Below, in pieces: positions 7,175 to 37,880 of a stretch of DNA of 53,802 bases. Position 1 is the first letter of the stretch, and each line of letters begins with the position of its first letter. The notes beneath the pieces are model-generated. The model did not search any database, was not told the origin of the DNA, and saw nothing but the letters and a program-made list of their open reading frames with translations. The position numbers and the translations under genes are program-made. The stretch comes from an uncultured Bacilli bacterium (GTDB lineage Bacteria > Bacillota_I > Bacilli_A > RF39 > UBA660), in NCBI GenBank assembly GCA_944358875.1, contig CALVRZ010000004.1, forward strand, positions 1 to 53,802. Direction: 5' to 3'.

Positions 7175-7966
7175 TCAACGATTAAACATATATATAACTA
7201 ATGCTACAACAATCAAAGATACAGAAGAAATAATTGTAATAACACTAGCATAACCACCCTGTTTTTGTTGTTTTAATTTAATTGGATTTTTCATTGCCAT
7301 CGTTAAAACCTTAATTGAATTATATTTACTTAAATCATTTCTAAGTGATGCAAAAGCATTTTTAACTCGTTCAAATTTTTCCCTATCTAAGTTGCATTTA
7401 GCCAAAAAAGCAAAATCAATTCTATCTTTATTGCGATTAGATAAATATTTGCTTATTGTAACAACTTCCAAAGACATAAGACGAATATCATCTTGTTTAT
7501 CTCTCTTATATATTGTTATATAATCTGATTTATTTAAACCTGGATATACTTTACTCTTTACTTCTCTCGTAAAAGGATCAAAACTATTCTGTTTAATCCC
7601 ATCTATTTTTTTCTCATATGGAAAAATCCCTACCGGAACACCATCAACTAAGAAAGAAAAACCATAATCTTCTCCATCATTTTCATAAGATAGACTATCC
7701 CATTCTGGAATATACAATTTAGCTTTTTTAATCATCTCTCTTAATGTTTCTATATCAAATTTATCGCACACTAAATCCAAATCCTCATGTAGCCTCGTCG
7801 AAGGTGTATTTAAATATAAGTAAGGTGCTAATCCACCAGATACATAAACCATTGTCTCAAAGCCTTTAATTTCATTTAATTTTTTCAAAGCATTAACTAG
7901 TTGATTGTAACTAAAGACATCACCCTTATAACTAAGATCAACTTTGTCCATAACTGCCTGTGTCAT
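7175..7966 (-). CDS. nucleotidyltransferase-fold protein with C-terminal membrane tail
   Basis: 263 residues. Residues 30-70 read as a minimal nucleotidyltransferase core: a GG (44-45) followed by HEDLDLV, with Asp62 and Asp64 as the likely metal-binding pair, as in AbiEii/AbiGii- or LinB-like proteins. The middle region (about 90-200) is a conserved-looking alpha/beta extension. Residues about 240-260 are one hydrophobic segment ending in the basic C terminus, suggesting a tail anchor at the membrane. It sits between pth and mfd where Bacillus has the small gene fin. No antitoxin-like partner is adjacent, so a toxin role is not supported by context. Activity and substrate unknown. Confidence 0.6.
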   Translation of the reverse strand: MTQAVMDKVDLSYKGDVFSYNQLVNALKKLNEIKGFETMVYVSGGLAPYLYLNTPSTRLHEDLDLVCDKFDIETLREMIKKAKLYIPEWDSLSYENDGEDYGFSFLVDGVPVGIFPYEKKIDGIKQNSFDPFTREVKSKVYPGLNKSDYITIYKRDKQDDIRLMSLEVVTISKYLSNRNKDRIDFAFLAKCNLDREKFERVKNAFASLRNDLSKYNSIKVLTMAMKNPIKLKQQKQGGYASVITIISSVSLIVVALVIYMFNR

Positions 7967-8054: not shown

Positions 8055-8098
8055 CAAAAAAATTATTTCCCGGGAAATAAAATTTCCTGGGAAATAAT
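8055..8098 (-). terminator. terminator of the pth transcript
   Basis: ATTATTTCCC pairs with GGGAAATAAT across the loop. The A-run at 8055-8061 gives a U-tract in the minus-strand RNA. The element begins at the pth stop codon. It contains the exact Noc-site palindrome listed separately, so it may be dual purpose. Confidence 0.7.
8065..8078. promoter_or_regulatory. exact Noc-binding-site (NBS) palindrome
   Basis: ATTTCCCGGGAAAT at 8065-8078 is identical to the B. subtilis NBS consensus, within an 18-bp perfect palindrome (8063-8080). A one-mismatch copy, ATTTCCTGGGAAAT, follows at 8082-8095. The noc-like gene at 35862 carries Noc-type specificity residues. The site overlaps a plausible terminator hairpin, so sequence alone cannot separate the two roles. 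Confidence 0.55.
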
Positions 8099-15458: not shown

Positions 15459-15578
15459 GTATATTTCAACTATAAACTTAAAAAACTGATTTTTTCAAAA
15501 AAAACAATCATCTCTAATTCCTTTATTCATACCGGGAAATAATCTATTCACTGCAGTTTTTATTAATTAAAATTTCCA

Positions 15579-17424
15579 TGTTTCACGTGAAACATAAGTA
15601 CATAATATAAGTACTAATATCAAAAATGATATTATCAAATATACTTATTATCAATATTACTAAATCTATGTTCCACGTGAAACATAAACTTAACTAATTA
15701 AGAATATATAATATAATAAAATCATTTATAATTATGATCATTTTATAGAATTCATTTTTTTCATTTAATATTAACAATTCATGTTCCACGTGAAACATGA
15801 ATTGTTATATAATAATATAGATATCAACAATTATATATTAACTGGATTATATTTATACTATTATCTATGTTCCACGTGGAACATAGATTTTCTTTTTCAA
15901 TAAATATAAAAGCACATTAACATTAAAATTTCTGTTTTTTTTAAATAAATATCACCTTATAAACGCTTTATTCACACCGGGAAATAATACATTCATTACA
16001 GTTTTTATTAAATAAATTTTCTATGTTCCACGTGAAACATAAGTAAAATTTATTATATAATATATATTATTTATAGTTATAATCATTTTATAAAATTTTT
16101 TTATTTATAATTAATAAGTTCATGTTTCACGTGAAACATGAACTATTATATATAAATATCAACAATTATGTATTAACTAAATCATATTTATATCGTTATC
16201 TATGTTTCACGTGGAACATAGATTATTTCTACATAAATTAATAGAAATTTATAAAATAATATCCTACAAATAAATTTAATAAATAAATTATTTACTTAAA
16301 GAATTATGTTTCACGTGGAACATATAATTACACAAAATAGATTTATAAATTATTTATTTAATTTAAAATTACTTATTATTTCATGTTCCACGTGGAACAT
16401 GAAATAGACTTTATATACAAATAACATTAATTCTAGAAACATAATTTCTGTTTTTTATAAACAAATACAATCTTGTAATGGCTTTATTCACACCGGGAAA
16501 TAATCCATTTGCTACAGTTTTTATTGAATAAAATTTCTATGTTCCACGTGAAACATAAGTAAAATTTATTATATAATATATATTATTTATAGTTATAATC
16601 ATTTTATAAAATTTTTTTATTTATAATTAATAAGTTCATGTTTCACGTGAAACATGAACTATTATATATAAATATCAACAATTATGTATTAACAAAATCA
16701 TATTTATATCGTTATCTATGTTTCACGTGGAACATACAATTTCATTTTCAACAAATATTAAATGCATCAACATTACAATTTCAGGTTTTTAAAAATAAAT
16801 ACTATCTCGTAATACCTTTATCTACACCGGAAAATAATACATTCATTGCAGTTTTTTCTAAATAAATTTTCTATGTTTCACGTGAAACATAAGTGCATAA
16901 TATAAGTACTAATATTAAAAATAAAATGAAAATAATTATATTGAATATAAATATTATTAATAATGCTAAATCTATGTTCCACGTGGAACATAGATTATTT
17001 CTACACAAATTAATAAAAATTTATAAAATAATATCATACAAATAACATTAATTCTAGAAACATAATTTCTGTTTTTTATAAACAAATACAATCTTGTAAA
17101 GACTTTATTCACACTGGGAAATAATCTATTTGCTACAGTTTTTATTGAATAAAATTTATGTGTTCCACGTGAAACATAAGTAAAACTCATTATATAATAT
17201 ATGTTTTTTATAGTTATAATCATTTTATAAAACTTTATTTTATGATTAATAAGTTCATGTTTCACGTGAAACATGAACTATTATATATAAATATAGATAT
17301 CAACAATTATGTATTAACTAAATCATATTTATGTCGTTATCTATGTTTCACGTGAAACACATACTCACATCAATAATAGATCTATAAATTATTCTATTAC
17401 TGAATTCATGTTTCACGTGGAACA
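15579..17424. repeat. parS: parS array: 18 ParB/Spo0J-binding sites
   Basis: 16-bp sites TGTTYCACGTGRAACA start at 15579, 15669, 15782, 15868, 16024, 16123, 16203, 16307, 16384, 16540, 16639, 16719, 16874, 16975, 17161, 17258, 17344 and 17409. Six have the TTTC/GAAA palindrome, three TTCC/GGAA, nine are mixed; every site matches the Bacillus parS consensus. Spacing is 65-186 bp. Many sit inside longer inverted repeats. The whole gene-free stretch 15425-17674 is this array plus AT-rich spacer. It lies about 8-11 kb from dnaA, a normal distance for parS, but the site density is extreme. Confidence 0.95.
16021..16735 (+). repeat. ~200-bp direct duplication inside the parS array
   Basis: 16021-16219 and 16537-16735 are near-identical at a 516-bp offset, each carrying three parS sites (16024/16123/16203 and 16540/16639/16719). 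A diverged third copy spans about 17157-17360. Other segments are also repeated (16431-16560 with 17051-17180; 16731-16873 with 17421-17554). The array therefore grew by segmental duplication. Confidence 0.85.
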
Positions 17425-17639
17425 TACAATTTCATTTTCAACAAATATTAAATGCATCAACATTACAATTTCAGGTTTTTAAAAATAAATACTACCTCGT
17501 AATACCTTTATCTACACCGGAAAATAATACATTCATTACAGTTTTTTCTAAATAAAAAAATTGTTTTCAACAATAAATAATTATCGATAGTAACATAGAA
17601 AATATTAATTATCAACAAAGATTTGGAAAGAAAAATGAG

Positions 17640-26976: not shown

Positions 26977-28737
26977 CTAATTTTTCCACTCAATAATCCA
27001 TTTATCAAAGATACTAGCATTACTACTCATTGGTTCTGGATTAGGTTTTTCCATTTTAACAATTAAAGGAATCTTCATCATATTACCAAAGGCAACACAA
27101 GTACCAGACTGTAACGATTTTTGTTTTTCGATAACATCATTACTAATATTAGGAACCATCTTTCTAATATATTCCATATCTGTTGGATGATTGATTTTAA
27201 ATATTAAGAAATTACTACATTGTGAAATAACCGTTTCTGATAATTCTGTTGGTCTTTGGGTAATCAAATCCAAAACCAAACCAAATTTACGACCTTCTTT
27301 AGCAATTCTCTCGAAGATATTATATCCTAATATACTATTATCTGTATCTTTCTGAACATATCTATGTGCTTCTTCTAACATAATATGAATAGGCATTGAA
27401 CCACGATTTGGTAAACCTTTAGTAAATCTAAATAATATTCTCGAATAAATCTTAACTAAAGTTTTAGCAAAACGATCATCGACCCCCTCTAAAACAAAGT
27501 TAATAATTTGCGCCCTTTTATTAGTACCTACCATAATCAAATTATTAATAAATTGATTAACATTAATAAAATTATCATATTTAAAGAACTGTCCTAAAGA
27601 ACTATTATTAATTGTGTGTAACTTAACTTTTAAAGCCATTCCTTCACTATAAGATTTTTCATTAAGTAAAAGTCCTTCTGAAATAAGAGTAAAACTAAGA
27701 GCAATTTCCAAGTCATCAAGGGTAAAGAAAACAGGCTCATACTCTTCTTTCCATTTGGTATTATTATCGACAAATTGTTGAATATATCCTGTAACTAAGA
27801 TTCTTTCGACAAATTCCCCTTTACTATCCAGATCAAAACATTTTCTGAATTCTCTCTCGTAACCAACCCCAGGAACCATAACATCTAAATTAAGTTCTGC
27901 CGTATGGCAATCATTAAGAACTGTAAAAATTTGGTCCCTAATACGAGCCGGTGTCTGATTAGAATACATTACCGAAATAATAGCCTTCGCAATTAAATGA
28001 TTTTTATATCTTGTCGCTTCCGCATCATCTTTCGCAAATACCGAAACGAAACCTAACATTCTTTCAATAACACTTAACTGTGTATAAGAAGTAACATCAA
28101 GTAAATTAGCATAATCATCGACACTAAGTAACCATAAAGGAATTCTAACTAATTCAGCATCCTTATAATCAAAACTAGTCGTATACATCTTGTAATTAAA
28201 ATTAACATTATAACTATTAATACTTCTAAAAGCATTATCATATTCATTTGTATTATTAAAGATAAAAATATTACTATTAAAAGGAATACGCCCTTTCATC
28301 AAAAATAAATTCTGTACAAGTCTAGCCACTCCATAAGTTTTACCAGAACCAGTATTACCTAAAATGGCAGAGTGATTACTCCACATCGCATCAATATCTA
28401 TTTTAATAGGATAATCATTATAAAGAGGAGCTAAACCTAATATCATACTTCGAACATTATTATCGCCTACTAACTCGCCTAGTTCTTCTTTATTGATCAT
28501 TCTAACTTTAGCAGTAAAACTAGGTTTACGAATAATACCCGATAAAAAACGACCATTAACAAATTCCCCTAAAAAAGTAATAGTAATATCATTACCGTTA
28601 ACTTCTTCAATTTCTCCTAGTATTCGCTTATTTTCTTCTTCAAAAACAACGTTATAGTTAAGTAAGTCCTCACTACCCATTCCTTCAAAACGTACAATTG
28701 CATAGTTTTTACTAATAGCTTTAATTTCTTTAAACAT
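26977..28737 (-). CDS. HerA-type hexameric ATPase (DUF87/FtsK-HerA superfamily)
   Basis: 586 residues. An N-terminal HAS-barrel-like region (1-80) is followed by a RecA-fold ATPase with Walker A ILGNTGSGKTYG (125-136), Walker B IHIMLEEAHRYV, sensor VLDLITQRPTELSETVISQC and a C-terminal segment SLQSGTCVAFGNMMKIPLIV typical of HerA. HerA translocates DNA, in archaea with NurA nuclease and in bacteria often in repair or defence. No NurA or Sir2 partner is adjacent. It sits between dnaA and rpmH, a junction normally without genes. It has its own promoter and terminator, so it is an independent unit. Role here unknown. Confidence 0.82.
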   Translation of the reverse strand: MFKEIKAISKNYAIVRFEGMGSEDLLNYNVVFEEENKRILGEIEEVNGNDITITFLGEFVNGRFLSGIIRKPSFTAKVRMINKEELGELVGDNNVRSMILGLAPLYNDYPIKIDIDAMWSNHSAILGNTGSGKTYGVARLVQNLFLMKGRIPFNSNIFIFNNTNEYDNAFRSINSYNVNFNYKMYTTSFDYKDAELVRIPLWLLSVDDYANLLDVTSYTQLSVIERMLGFVSVFAKDDAEATRYKNHLIAKAIISVMYSNQTPARIRDQIFTVLNDCHTAELNLDVMVPGVGYEREFRKCFDLDSKGEFVERILVTGYIQQFVDNNTKWKEEYEPVFFTLDDLEIALSFTLISEGLLLNEKSYSEGMALKVKLHTINNSSLGQFFKYDNFINVNQFINNLIMVGTNKRAQIINFVLEGVDDRFAKTLVKIYSRILFRFTKGLPNRGSMPIHIMLEEAHRYVQKDTDNSILGYNIFERIAKEGRKFGLVLDLITQRPTELSETVISQCSNFLIFKINHPTDMEYIRKMVPNISNDVIEKQKSLQSGTCVAFGNMMKIPLIVKMEKPNPEPMSSNASIFDKWIIEWKN

Positions 28738-35673: not shown

Positions 35674-35745
35674 AAAGAAATCTAATTGTATTAAAAATCA
35701 ATAATTAAAACGTCTAAATTTGTTTAAATATTTTAGACGTTTTTC
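35674..35745 (+). repeat. direct repeat copy 2, with terminator
   Basis: Second copy of the rsmG end repeat, including a working-looking hairpin (AAACGTCTAAA 35708-35718 with TTTAGACGTTT 35732-35742, then Ts). It terminates the small membrane gene and insulates noc. Confidence 0.85.
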
Positions 35746-35796
35746 ATATCTTGTCCATCAAAAATCAACTTTTATCCAAAAATAAATCAAAAAAAC

Positions 35797-35861: not shown

Positions 35862-37880
35862 ATGAATACGAATAATCAAATTATTAAAGTAAAAATAGAG
35901 GATATAGTACCCAATCGTTTCCAACCAAGAATAAATTTTGATAAGGAAGCTTTAAATGAACTAGCAGCTTCTATCAAACGATATGGTATTATTCAACCTC
36001 TAACGTTAAGGCAAATTGGTCCCAAATATGAAATAATTGCCGGTGAACGTCGCTATAAAGCCGCCATCATCGCTGGTTTAACCGAAGTACCTGCCATGAT
36101 AGCGACAATGGACGATCAAACAAGTGCTGAATTAGCTATTATTGAAAATCTCCAACGAGAAGAATTAAGTGCCATTGAAGAAGCCAAATCATATAAAAGA
36201 TTAATCGACTTTAGTAATATCACCCAAGCCGAATTAGCTAACAGACTTGGTAAAAGTCAATCAGCAATTGCTAATAAATTAAGACTTTTAAATTTAACTA
36301 AAGAAGTTCAAGAAGCCTTAGCCAAAAATCAAATATCTGAACGTCATGCCAGAAGTTTACTTGCGGTTAAAGATCCAAACCAACAAGTTGATATCTTAAA
36401 TCGTATTATAAAAGAAAGATTGACGGTTAAAGATACAGATCAAGTTATTAAAGATTTAACCAATAATGATTCTAATATTAATAAAGATAACAATATTGAA
36501 AAACAAATACCTGTTATTGATAAATCCAAAATAAATATTGAATTCAATCAGCCAGAGCCACAACCAGAGGAATTACCAAGTATAACAAAATTTGAAAATC
36601 CTGATATTATCAATCTTAATGATTTAAATAGTGATAATATTTTTCAAAGATATTTAAATCAATCAACCCAAAAAGAAGAAAGAAAAGAGGAAAAAAATAT
36701 GAATAATGAATTAAATAACCAAATTCCAAGTTTTGATAGTTTATTACAGCCAGAAGCACCAAAAACAGAACCGGTTGCTGCACCAACAACACCACAAGTA
36801 CAAATACCAGCGCCAACCCCAGCTGGAAATAAGTTTTTCCCTGATTTAGAAGATGAAAGTTTAAATATGGGTAATGTGAGTGCAAATCCAATGCCAACAA
36901 GTGATCCATCATCATTAAATAGCTTTTTAAATAGTGCTACCCTAACCCCTGTCACTCCCGTTACTCCTGCTAGTGCACCTGAGCCAGAGCCTCAAGCGCC
37001 AACCCCTGTTGTGCCACCAATTGAATCAGTAAATACTATGCCAAGTATTGAACCAATCAGTCCAATTGCGCCAGTCACACCAGAACCAATGGGAGCTTCT
37101 CCAGTTGATTCACTTCCAGGAACAGTTTCACCAACCTTAACACCAATTAATGATACTCCACCAGTAACCGTTCCAGGAGCATCTGCTAATCCAATTCCTA
37201 ATATAACTCCAATTGTAAACGAAAATGTTACGGTAACTCCAGTATCTGAAAGTGGATCACCAACTCCTACGATTGAACCAATTAGTCCAATTAGCCAGGT
37301 ACCTCCAGTCGAGGCAAACCCTATTCCTGAAACACCAAGTCCTATCTCACCTATTGGTTTAAATACAACTCCAATTGCGGGTGTTCCTAATAATGAACCA
37401 AATAGCGTTCAAACACCTAGTTTAGATCCAATTAGCCCTATCAGTGAGCCAATACCAAGCCCTATTCCATCTATTGATACAAATACAGCTCCAATTGCGG
37501 GTGTTCCTAATAATGAACCAAATAGCATTCAAACACCTAGTTTAGATCCAATCAGCCCTATCAGTGAGCCAACACCAACTGTTAGCCCTGTTAATGAAGG
37601 ACCAATCACTCCAGTAATGCCTGCACCAAGTATTGAGACAGCAACTCCTGCTCCTGCAACACCAGAAACTGCTATGGAATTACCATCAATTCCAGAACCA
37701 ACCGTAGCTCCTGAGCCTGTTGCCCCTACTCCTACTGGATCCCCAACTAATAACGTAACTAATGCTGTTAATCAAGTACGTGATTTAATAAATAATTTAG
37801 AGAATAATGGCTATATTGTTGACATTCAAGAATTAGATCTACCAGATAAATATCAATTAACCATATCAATAAAAAAATAA
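35862..37880 (+). CDS. noc: Noc-type ParB-family nucleoid occlusion protein with giant Pro-rich insert
   Basis: 672 residues; Bacillus Noc is about 283. Residues 8-115: ParB N-terminal CTP-binding domain (PNRFQPR, GERRYKAA 61-68, ENLQREEL). Residues 120-165: HTH with Gln133, Lys139, Asn144 and Arg161, matching three of the four Noc specificity positions (QKKR) rather than those of ParB/Spo0J (RTAG). Residues about 225-629: Pro/Thr/Ser-rich, low-complexity, with a 40-residue repeat. Residues 630-672 (VNQVRDLINNLENNGYIVDI...YQLTISIKK) match the Noc C-terminal dimer domain. The location after rsmG is the Noc position in Bacillus. The N-terminal amphipathic membrane helix of Noc is not visible. 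No soj/spo0J follows. Confidence 0.88.
   Translation: MNTNNQIIKVKIEDIVPNRFQPRINFDKEALNELAASIKRYGIIQPLTLRQIGPKYEIIAGERRYKAAIIAGLTEVPAMIATMDDQTSAELAIIENLQREELSAIEEAKSYKRLIDFSNITQAELANRLGKSQSAIANKLRLLNLTKEVQEALAKNQISERHARSLLAVKDPNQQVDILNRIIKERLTVKDTDQVIKDLTNNDSNINKDNNIEKQIPVIDKSKINIEFNQPEPQPEELPSITKFENPDIINLNDLNSDNIFQRYLNQSTQKEERKEEKNMNNELNNQIPSFDSLLQPEAPKTEPVAAPTTPQVQIPAPTPAGNKFFPDLEDESLNMGNVSANPMPTSDPSSLNSFLNSATLTPVTPVTPASAPEPEPQAPTPVVPPIESVNTMPSIEPISPIAPVTPEPMGASPVDSLPGTVSPTLTPINDTPPVTVPGASANPIPNITPIVNENVTVTPVSESGSPTPTIEPISPISQVPPVEANPIPETPSPISPIGLNTTPIAGVPNNEPNSVQTPSLDPISPISEPIPSPIPSIDTNTAPIAGVPNNEPNSIQTPSLDPISPISEPTPTVSPVNEGPITPVMPAPSIETATPAPATPETAMELPSIPEPTVAPEPVAPTPTGSPTNNVTNAVNQVRDLINNLENNGYIVDIQELDLPDKYQLTISIKK
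37361..37572 (+). repeat. 120-bp-period tandem repeat within noc
   Basis: 37361-37452 and 37481-37572 are near-identical (four or fewer differences) at exactly 120 bp, encoding PIAGVPNNEPNS-V/I-QTPSLDPISPISEP twice. The surrounding region has looser repeats of the PISPI motif. Confidence 0.85.

Follow-up and report, generated by a model that had tools for sequence, protein, structure and literature searches.

Adams et al. reported in 2015 that an N-terminal amphipathic helix was present in every Noc homologue they examined (PMC4331003), and Jalal et al. reported that this helix is controlled by CTP (PMC8429893). The membrane model of Noc is based on it (PMC4331003, PMC8429893). In Staphylococcus aureus, Noc was found at 41 loci by ChIP, all but one of which lay within ±700 kb of the origin, and Pang et al. 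wrote in 2017 that the search for an elusive protein partner of Noc should go on (PMC5540599). The residues that set specificity for Noc-binding sites (NBS) or for parS are provided by a published key (PMC7383237). We analysed a noc gene in a DNA stretch of 53,802 nucleotides (the window) from an uncultured Bacilli bacterium (GCA_944358875.1, contig CALVRZ010000004.1), together with its relatives. A literature search found no long-linker Noc, no Noc in RF39 and no interleaving of NBS with parS, in accord with the first-pass annotation of this DNA, which knew of no described Noc of this architecture.

The noc gene of the window adjoins rsmG and is one intact ORF of 672 aa (35862-37880, forward strand). 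Upstream of its ATG at 35862 lies an alternative in-frame TTG at 35751. The ATG, a credible start codon, was preferred on account of a terminator-like hairpin (~35707-35745) and the Shine-Dalgarno sequence gagagg. The product was divided into the following parts.

35862..36467, forward strand: Noc head, aa 1-202, ending at 36467 (Pfam, TIGR04285, alignment and PDB matches)
36468..37748, forward strand: disordered, acidic linker rich in Pro, Thr, Ser and Asn, aa 203-629, 427 aa, 21% Pro (composition, AlphaFold2)
37331..37578, forward strand: in-frame tandem repeat inside the linker, 120-bp unit (about 40 aa) in 2.1 copies
37749..37877, forward strand: C-terminal dimerisation domain, aa 630-672, 43 aa (TIGR04285, AlphaFold2)

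Pfam recognised ParB_N (aa 6-98) and HTH_ParB (aa 100-200) in the head, whose CTP-binding ParB_N domain carries the GERRY and ENLQREE boxes. The top NCBIfam model was TIGR04285 (nucleoid_noc), which matched with 285 bits in two stretches, the last 43 aa aligning to model positions 213-255, and the best PDB matches of the head were the Noc crystal structures 7ng0, 7nfu and 7ol9. AlphaFold2 returned a head (aa 1-210) with pLDDT mostly >90, a stretch without structure (aa 211-629) with pLDDT mostly <55, and a folded C-terminal domain (aa 630-672) of one helix and two strands with pLDDT of about 95. Pfam, TIGR04285 and PDB matches thus agreed with the first-pass annotation, which had read the gene as a Noc-type CTPase/HTH part and a 43-residue C-terminal domain separated by a Pro-rich, probably disordered insert of ~400 residues, and the structure and disorder prediction that it had proposed bore out the insert. 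The 40-residue repeats it had listed there exist as the 120-bp unit, but in 2.1 copies only.

The window protein is a Noc by descent. In its HTH, Q133, K139, N144 and R161 correspond to Q173, K179, N184 and R201 in ParB numbering; the parS-type residues R173 and G201 are replaced by Q and R. These NBS-type residues were kept throughout the family (Q in 128/130, K179 in 127/130 and R in 129/130), and the CTP-binding boxes were invariant in the family alignment. The ParB of the same genome (L001) carries R, T and G, the residues that read parS. Three tested features of Noc failed, namely the membrane helix, the cut-off of the curated model and the spread of NBS. The scores of the window protein (285 bits) and of eight relatives (269-305 bits) fell below the TIGR04285 cut-off of 315 bits; the linker splits the model.

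A ParB-type head was detected in 144 of 145 same-family genomes (143 of 144 genera), and the best match in most of them was a long Noc frame. Those relatives that have names, among them Candidatus Onthousia, Coprovivens and Ventrenecus, are MAGs of uncultured Bacilli, and animal guts are the source of many. From this one Bacilli family we extracted 129 complete noc genes, that of the window included; rsmG was present at 116 of 130 noc loci, and several of the remaining loci were cut by contig ends. The comparison of linker length among rsmG-adjacent homologues, suggested in the first-pass annotation, indicated that the long linker is a family-wide trait. Head, linker and C-terminal domain were encoded in a single frame in 129/129 genes, and linker length ranged from 79 to 477 aa (median 205). 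The window linker is the fourth longest of the 129 and has the highest Pro content, so that the ~400-residue insert, which had been regarded as an oddity of this Noc, is real but represents the long end of the family's range. ParB, the paralogue in these genomes, was not lengthened (about 290-306 aa). Outgroups were taken from a class-level search, the order-level search having returned the same family only; Noc frames in these other Bacilli families were mostly 254-306 aa, with one family (f17) as the exception.

That the insert is a product of misassembly or of a frameshift is hardly conceivable. We found no support for such an artefact, and it is contradicted by the only other genome of the genus searched, which has the same noc gene with 98% identity across aa 1-527 and one 120-bp repeat unit fewer. 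Both assembly fusion and frameshift fail as explanations because all 129 complete genes share the design.

Judged from the reading frames, the N-terminal membrane helix is lost in the family, in agreement with the earlier observation that none was visible here. As in most relatives, 16 aa separate the ATG of window Noc from the PNRFQP box (family median, 16 aa), and the codons open upstream of this box number 30 or fewer in 110/129 frames, too few for a helix and spacer. An N-terminal amphipathic helix is therefore absent in window Noc, and nearly all family frames leave no space for one. Since some other sampled Bacilli families also have no N-terminal helix, its absence is by itself not unique.

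NBS were counted as consensus matches with up to one mismatch, and the reversed pattern served as control. The sites in the window were as follows.

8065..8078, no strand assigned: perfect NBS, ATTTCCCGGGAAAT
8082..8095, no strand assigned: second NBS with one mismatch, 17 bp further on
15579..17424, no strand assigned: array of 18 parS (TGTTYCACGTGRAACA) between tadA and gyrA

The NBS pair (8065-8095) lies between pth and a gene without assigned function and is also present in the same-genus genome; beyond it, the window genome showed two-mismatch background only. Consensus NBS were found in 121 of 136 family genomes, mostly 1-8 in each, and the reversed control almost always gave 0. In 18 genomes chosen because noc and the sites lay on one contig long enough to judge, including two near-complete chromosomes (contigs 1.26 and 1.04 Mb long), all 55 NBS were located 0.1-32 kb from noc, within 35 kb. 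When 16 relatives were compared by gene order, most NBS fell in the block pth-trmN-ricT-holB-recR-dnaX-tadA-gyrA, and ten of the 16 had at least one NBS between tadA and gyrA, where it was usually interspersed with parS. In the fragmented relatives G016, G013 and G002, NBS occurred on more than one contig. The 18 parS, clustered in 1.85 kb, account for every parS detected in the 1.31-Mb window genome at up to two mismatches; relatives had about 2-11 in or beside the tadA-gyrA gap. As far as consensus matches show, NBS are confined to the oriC side, often beside parS. Weaker functional NBS could be scattered elsewhere: Noc of S. aureus occupies 41 loci by ChIP, yet the staphylococcus-like genomes in our set showed few consensus NBS.

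The origin restriction of the NBS had gone unnoticed in the first-pass annotation. Several other features were observed in these regions. Within the parS array (15528-17530), a second repeated element resembling CACACCGGGAAATAAT recurs about every 350-500 bp, and several of its copies include an NBS-like half (CCGGGAAAT). One relative (G023) had 23 consensus NBS, far above the usual 1-8. A 263-aa ORF (7175-7966, reverse strand), whose 5' end points towards the NBS pair, had no NCBIfam match at E up to 0.001. A HerA-type helicase ORF (26977-28737, reverse strand) occupies the usual oriC gap, with dnaA on one side and the rnpA-yidC block on the other; tblastn found no counterpart in this gap of the relatives compared by gene order.

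Although the linkers are otherwise unalignable, three short motifs were conserved across genera. Motif A (I...A.DI) occurred in 52/129 linkers (0.6 in shuffled linkers), motif B (D[LI]DxLL) in 18/129 (0.0 in shuffled linkers) and motif C ([KR]FFN) in 39/129 (0.3 in shuffled linkers); 45/129 linkers were without motif A even in a relaxed form. An A-B pair was present in 37 linkers at a distance of 15-21 aa, mostly 15-18 and exactly 15 aa in 21 of them, and was found 0.0 times in shuffles. In the window linker, C is clear, and A and B are degenerate.

36606..36629, forward strand: motif A' (IINLNDLN), aa 249-256, module A, first half, in its own-clade form
36723..36746, forward strand: motif B' (IPSFDSLL), aa 288-295, counterpart of family module B
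36828..36869, forward strand: motif C (NKFFPDLEDESLNM), aa 323-336

AlphaFold2 placed a weak helix at aa 260-266 of window Noc; in a relative with the full A-B module, it gave a local rise in pLDDT and a short helix at the module. That the module docks on the head of Noc itself found no support in AlphaFold2, which showed no confident contact, only the local rise in pLDDT. A profile of the A-B module scored strongly inside noc genes only (58 genomes). The module was sought in other proteins and none was convincing, the best non-noc matches having E of about 3e-4 in single genomes. Mimicry of the FtsZ tail was retained as no more than a lead: motif B is loosely like the family FtsZ tail (DIPPFLRxR), but nearly all relatives lack its Pro and Phe.

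The early part of the linker may also contain a translation start.

36699..36701, forward strand: candidate internal start codon at aa 280, preceded by AAAGAGGAAAAAAAT (family-level enrichment)

In the first 90 linker residues, an in-frame ATG with a Shine-Dalgarno-like lead was found at 32 sites in 29 genomes. Synonymous recoding gave an expectation of 18.1 ± 3.4, and none of 300 recodings reached 32; the rest of the linker showed no excess (8 such ATGs, 8.7 expected). From its coding sequence, a start at 36699 would give a 393-aa headless product composed of linker and dimer domain, which is possible, and internal starts of this kind may yield a headless form in about a fifth of genomes. L060, L093, L102 and L105 are among the other genes with such an early-linker ATG.

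From this architecture and from the sites and motifs visible in the sequence, we infer a partner, a clamp activity and a cellular function as follows. The family noc orthologue would be an origin-loaded clamp with a long disordered arm that recruits a partner, a reading whose chances we put at about even. Noc would load at the few origin NBS, close as a CTP-dependent clamp and spread across the origin region. Many Noc copies would then present their linker motifs and thereby recruit or tether a specific protein partner, and not lipid directly; the arm would take the place of the membrane helix and couple division, segregation or the control of replication to the origin region, and a headless linker-plus-dimer form could tune the complex. 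We propose more tentatively, and think it somewhat less probable than improbable, a fuller version with a second centromere-type clamp on NBS beside or among parS, a noc-specific A-B-C arm for a dedicated partner, and the headless isoform as a regulator.

The first-pass annotation had offered three roles for the insert: binding of another partner, spanning a long distance, or driving condensation. The first fits best, given the cross-genus motifs and the noc-specific module, and spanning is possible as a by-product. It is rather unlikely that spanning is all there is, that is, that length alone counts and a larger ring passes bulky obstacles or reaches far while the sequence drifts. Such a passive spacer would be consistent with the low-complexity composition, with lengths of 79-477 aa between genera and with the difference of a whole repeat between two same-genus species, but its motifs would not be expected far above shuffles or at a fixed relative spacing, and ParB clamps in these genomes were not lengthened. 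The motifs could, on the other hand, be remnants of shared ancestry. A long low-complexity region on a dimerising protein that spreads on DNA might suggest that Noc-DNA complexes undergo phase separation with the help of the disordered linker. We consider this very unlikely: sticker residues are few (Arg 0.5% and Tyr 0.2% in the window linker; Arg 0.8%, Tyr 1.1% and Trp 0% in family linkers) and the charge is strongly net negative (D+E 19% against K+R 6%), so that condensation, as one of the three proposed roles, is weakened.

The same charge bears on whether the membrane anchor was relocated rather than lost, with motif C or helix A replacing the N-terminal helix and DNA-loaded Noc binding lipid directly. 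The loss of the N-terminal helix coincides with the presence of the motifs, the helical moment of motif A is high (0.44), and motif C (RFFNFLEDE) may be loosely akin to the N-terminus of Bacillus Noc. However, motifs A and C carry a net negative charge (-1.9 for A and -1.25 for C per 13 aa), whereas outgroup Noc N-termini have about +0.4, acidic residues also outnumber basic ones in the linker as a whole, and AlphaFold2 gave no confident helix at motif C. We regard a relocated anchor as quite unlikely; the acidity of the motifs points to a protein partner rather than lipid.

A natural Noc without the helix but with a conserved noc-specific module, found in a whole family, provides a defined bait in the search that Pang et al. 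called for (PMC5540599). The NBS beside or among parS suggest that Noc can serve as an origin factor, not a chromosome-wide marker.

Compared with known systems, the family Noc shares its fold, CTP motifs and site clusters beside the origin with ParB/Spo0J and parS. ParB/Spo0J differs in having R/T/G residues at the specificity positions, where family Noc has Q/K/R, and in its length of about 299 aa without a long linker. The Noc of family f17 (L248, genome G221; L249, genome G232) also has an extra long region, and an NBS cluster lies near noc in the L248 genome. There, however, the extra region comes after the C-terminal domain, and L248 retains an N-terminal MALFNRKDK segment, so that the f17 arm looks independently gained. 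The f17 tail of L248 is acidic and ends in DGFWNLFK. With the Noc of Bacillus subtilis, Geobacillus and S. aureus (TIGR04285; PDB 7nfu, 7ng0, 7ol9, 6y93), the family has in common the CTPase head, the NBS-type HTH residues, the NBS itself, the C-terminal domain and the place after rsmG. The classical Noc has the N-terminal amphipathic helix (PMC4331003), whereas the family Noc has none and carries a linker of 79-477 aa in addition; and NBS lie across the origin-proximal chromosome in S. aureus (PMC5540599), but consensus NBS are no more than about 35 kb from noc in the family.
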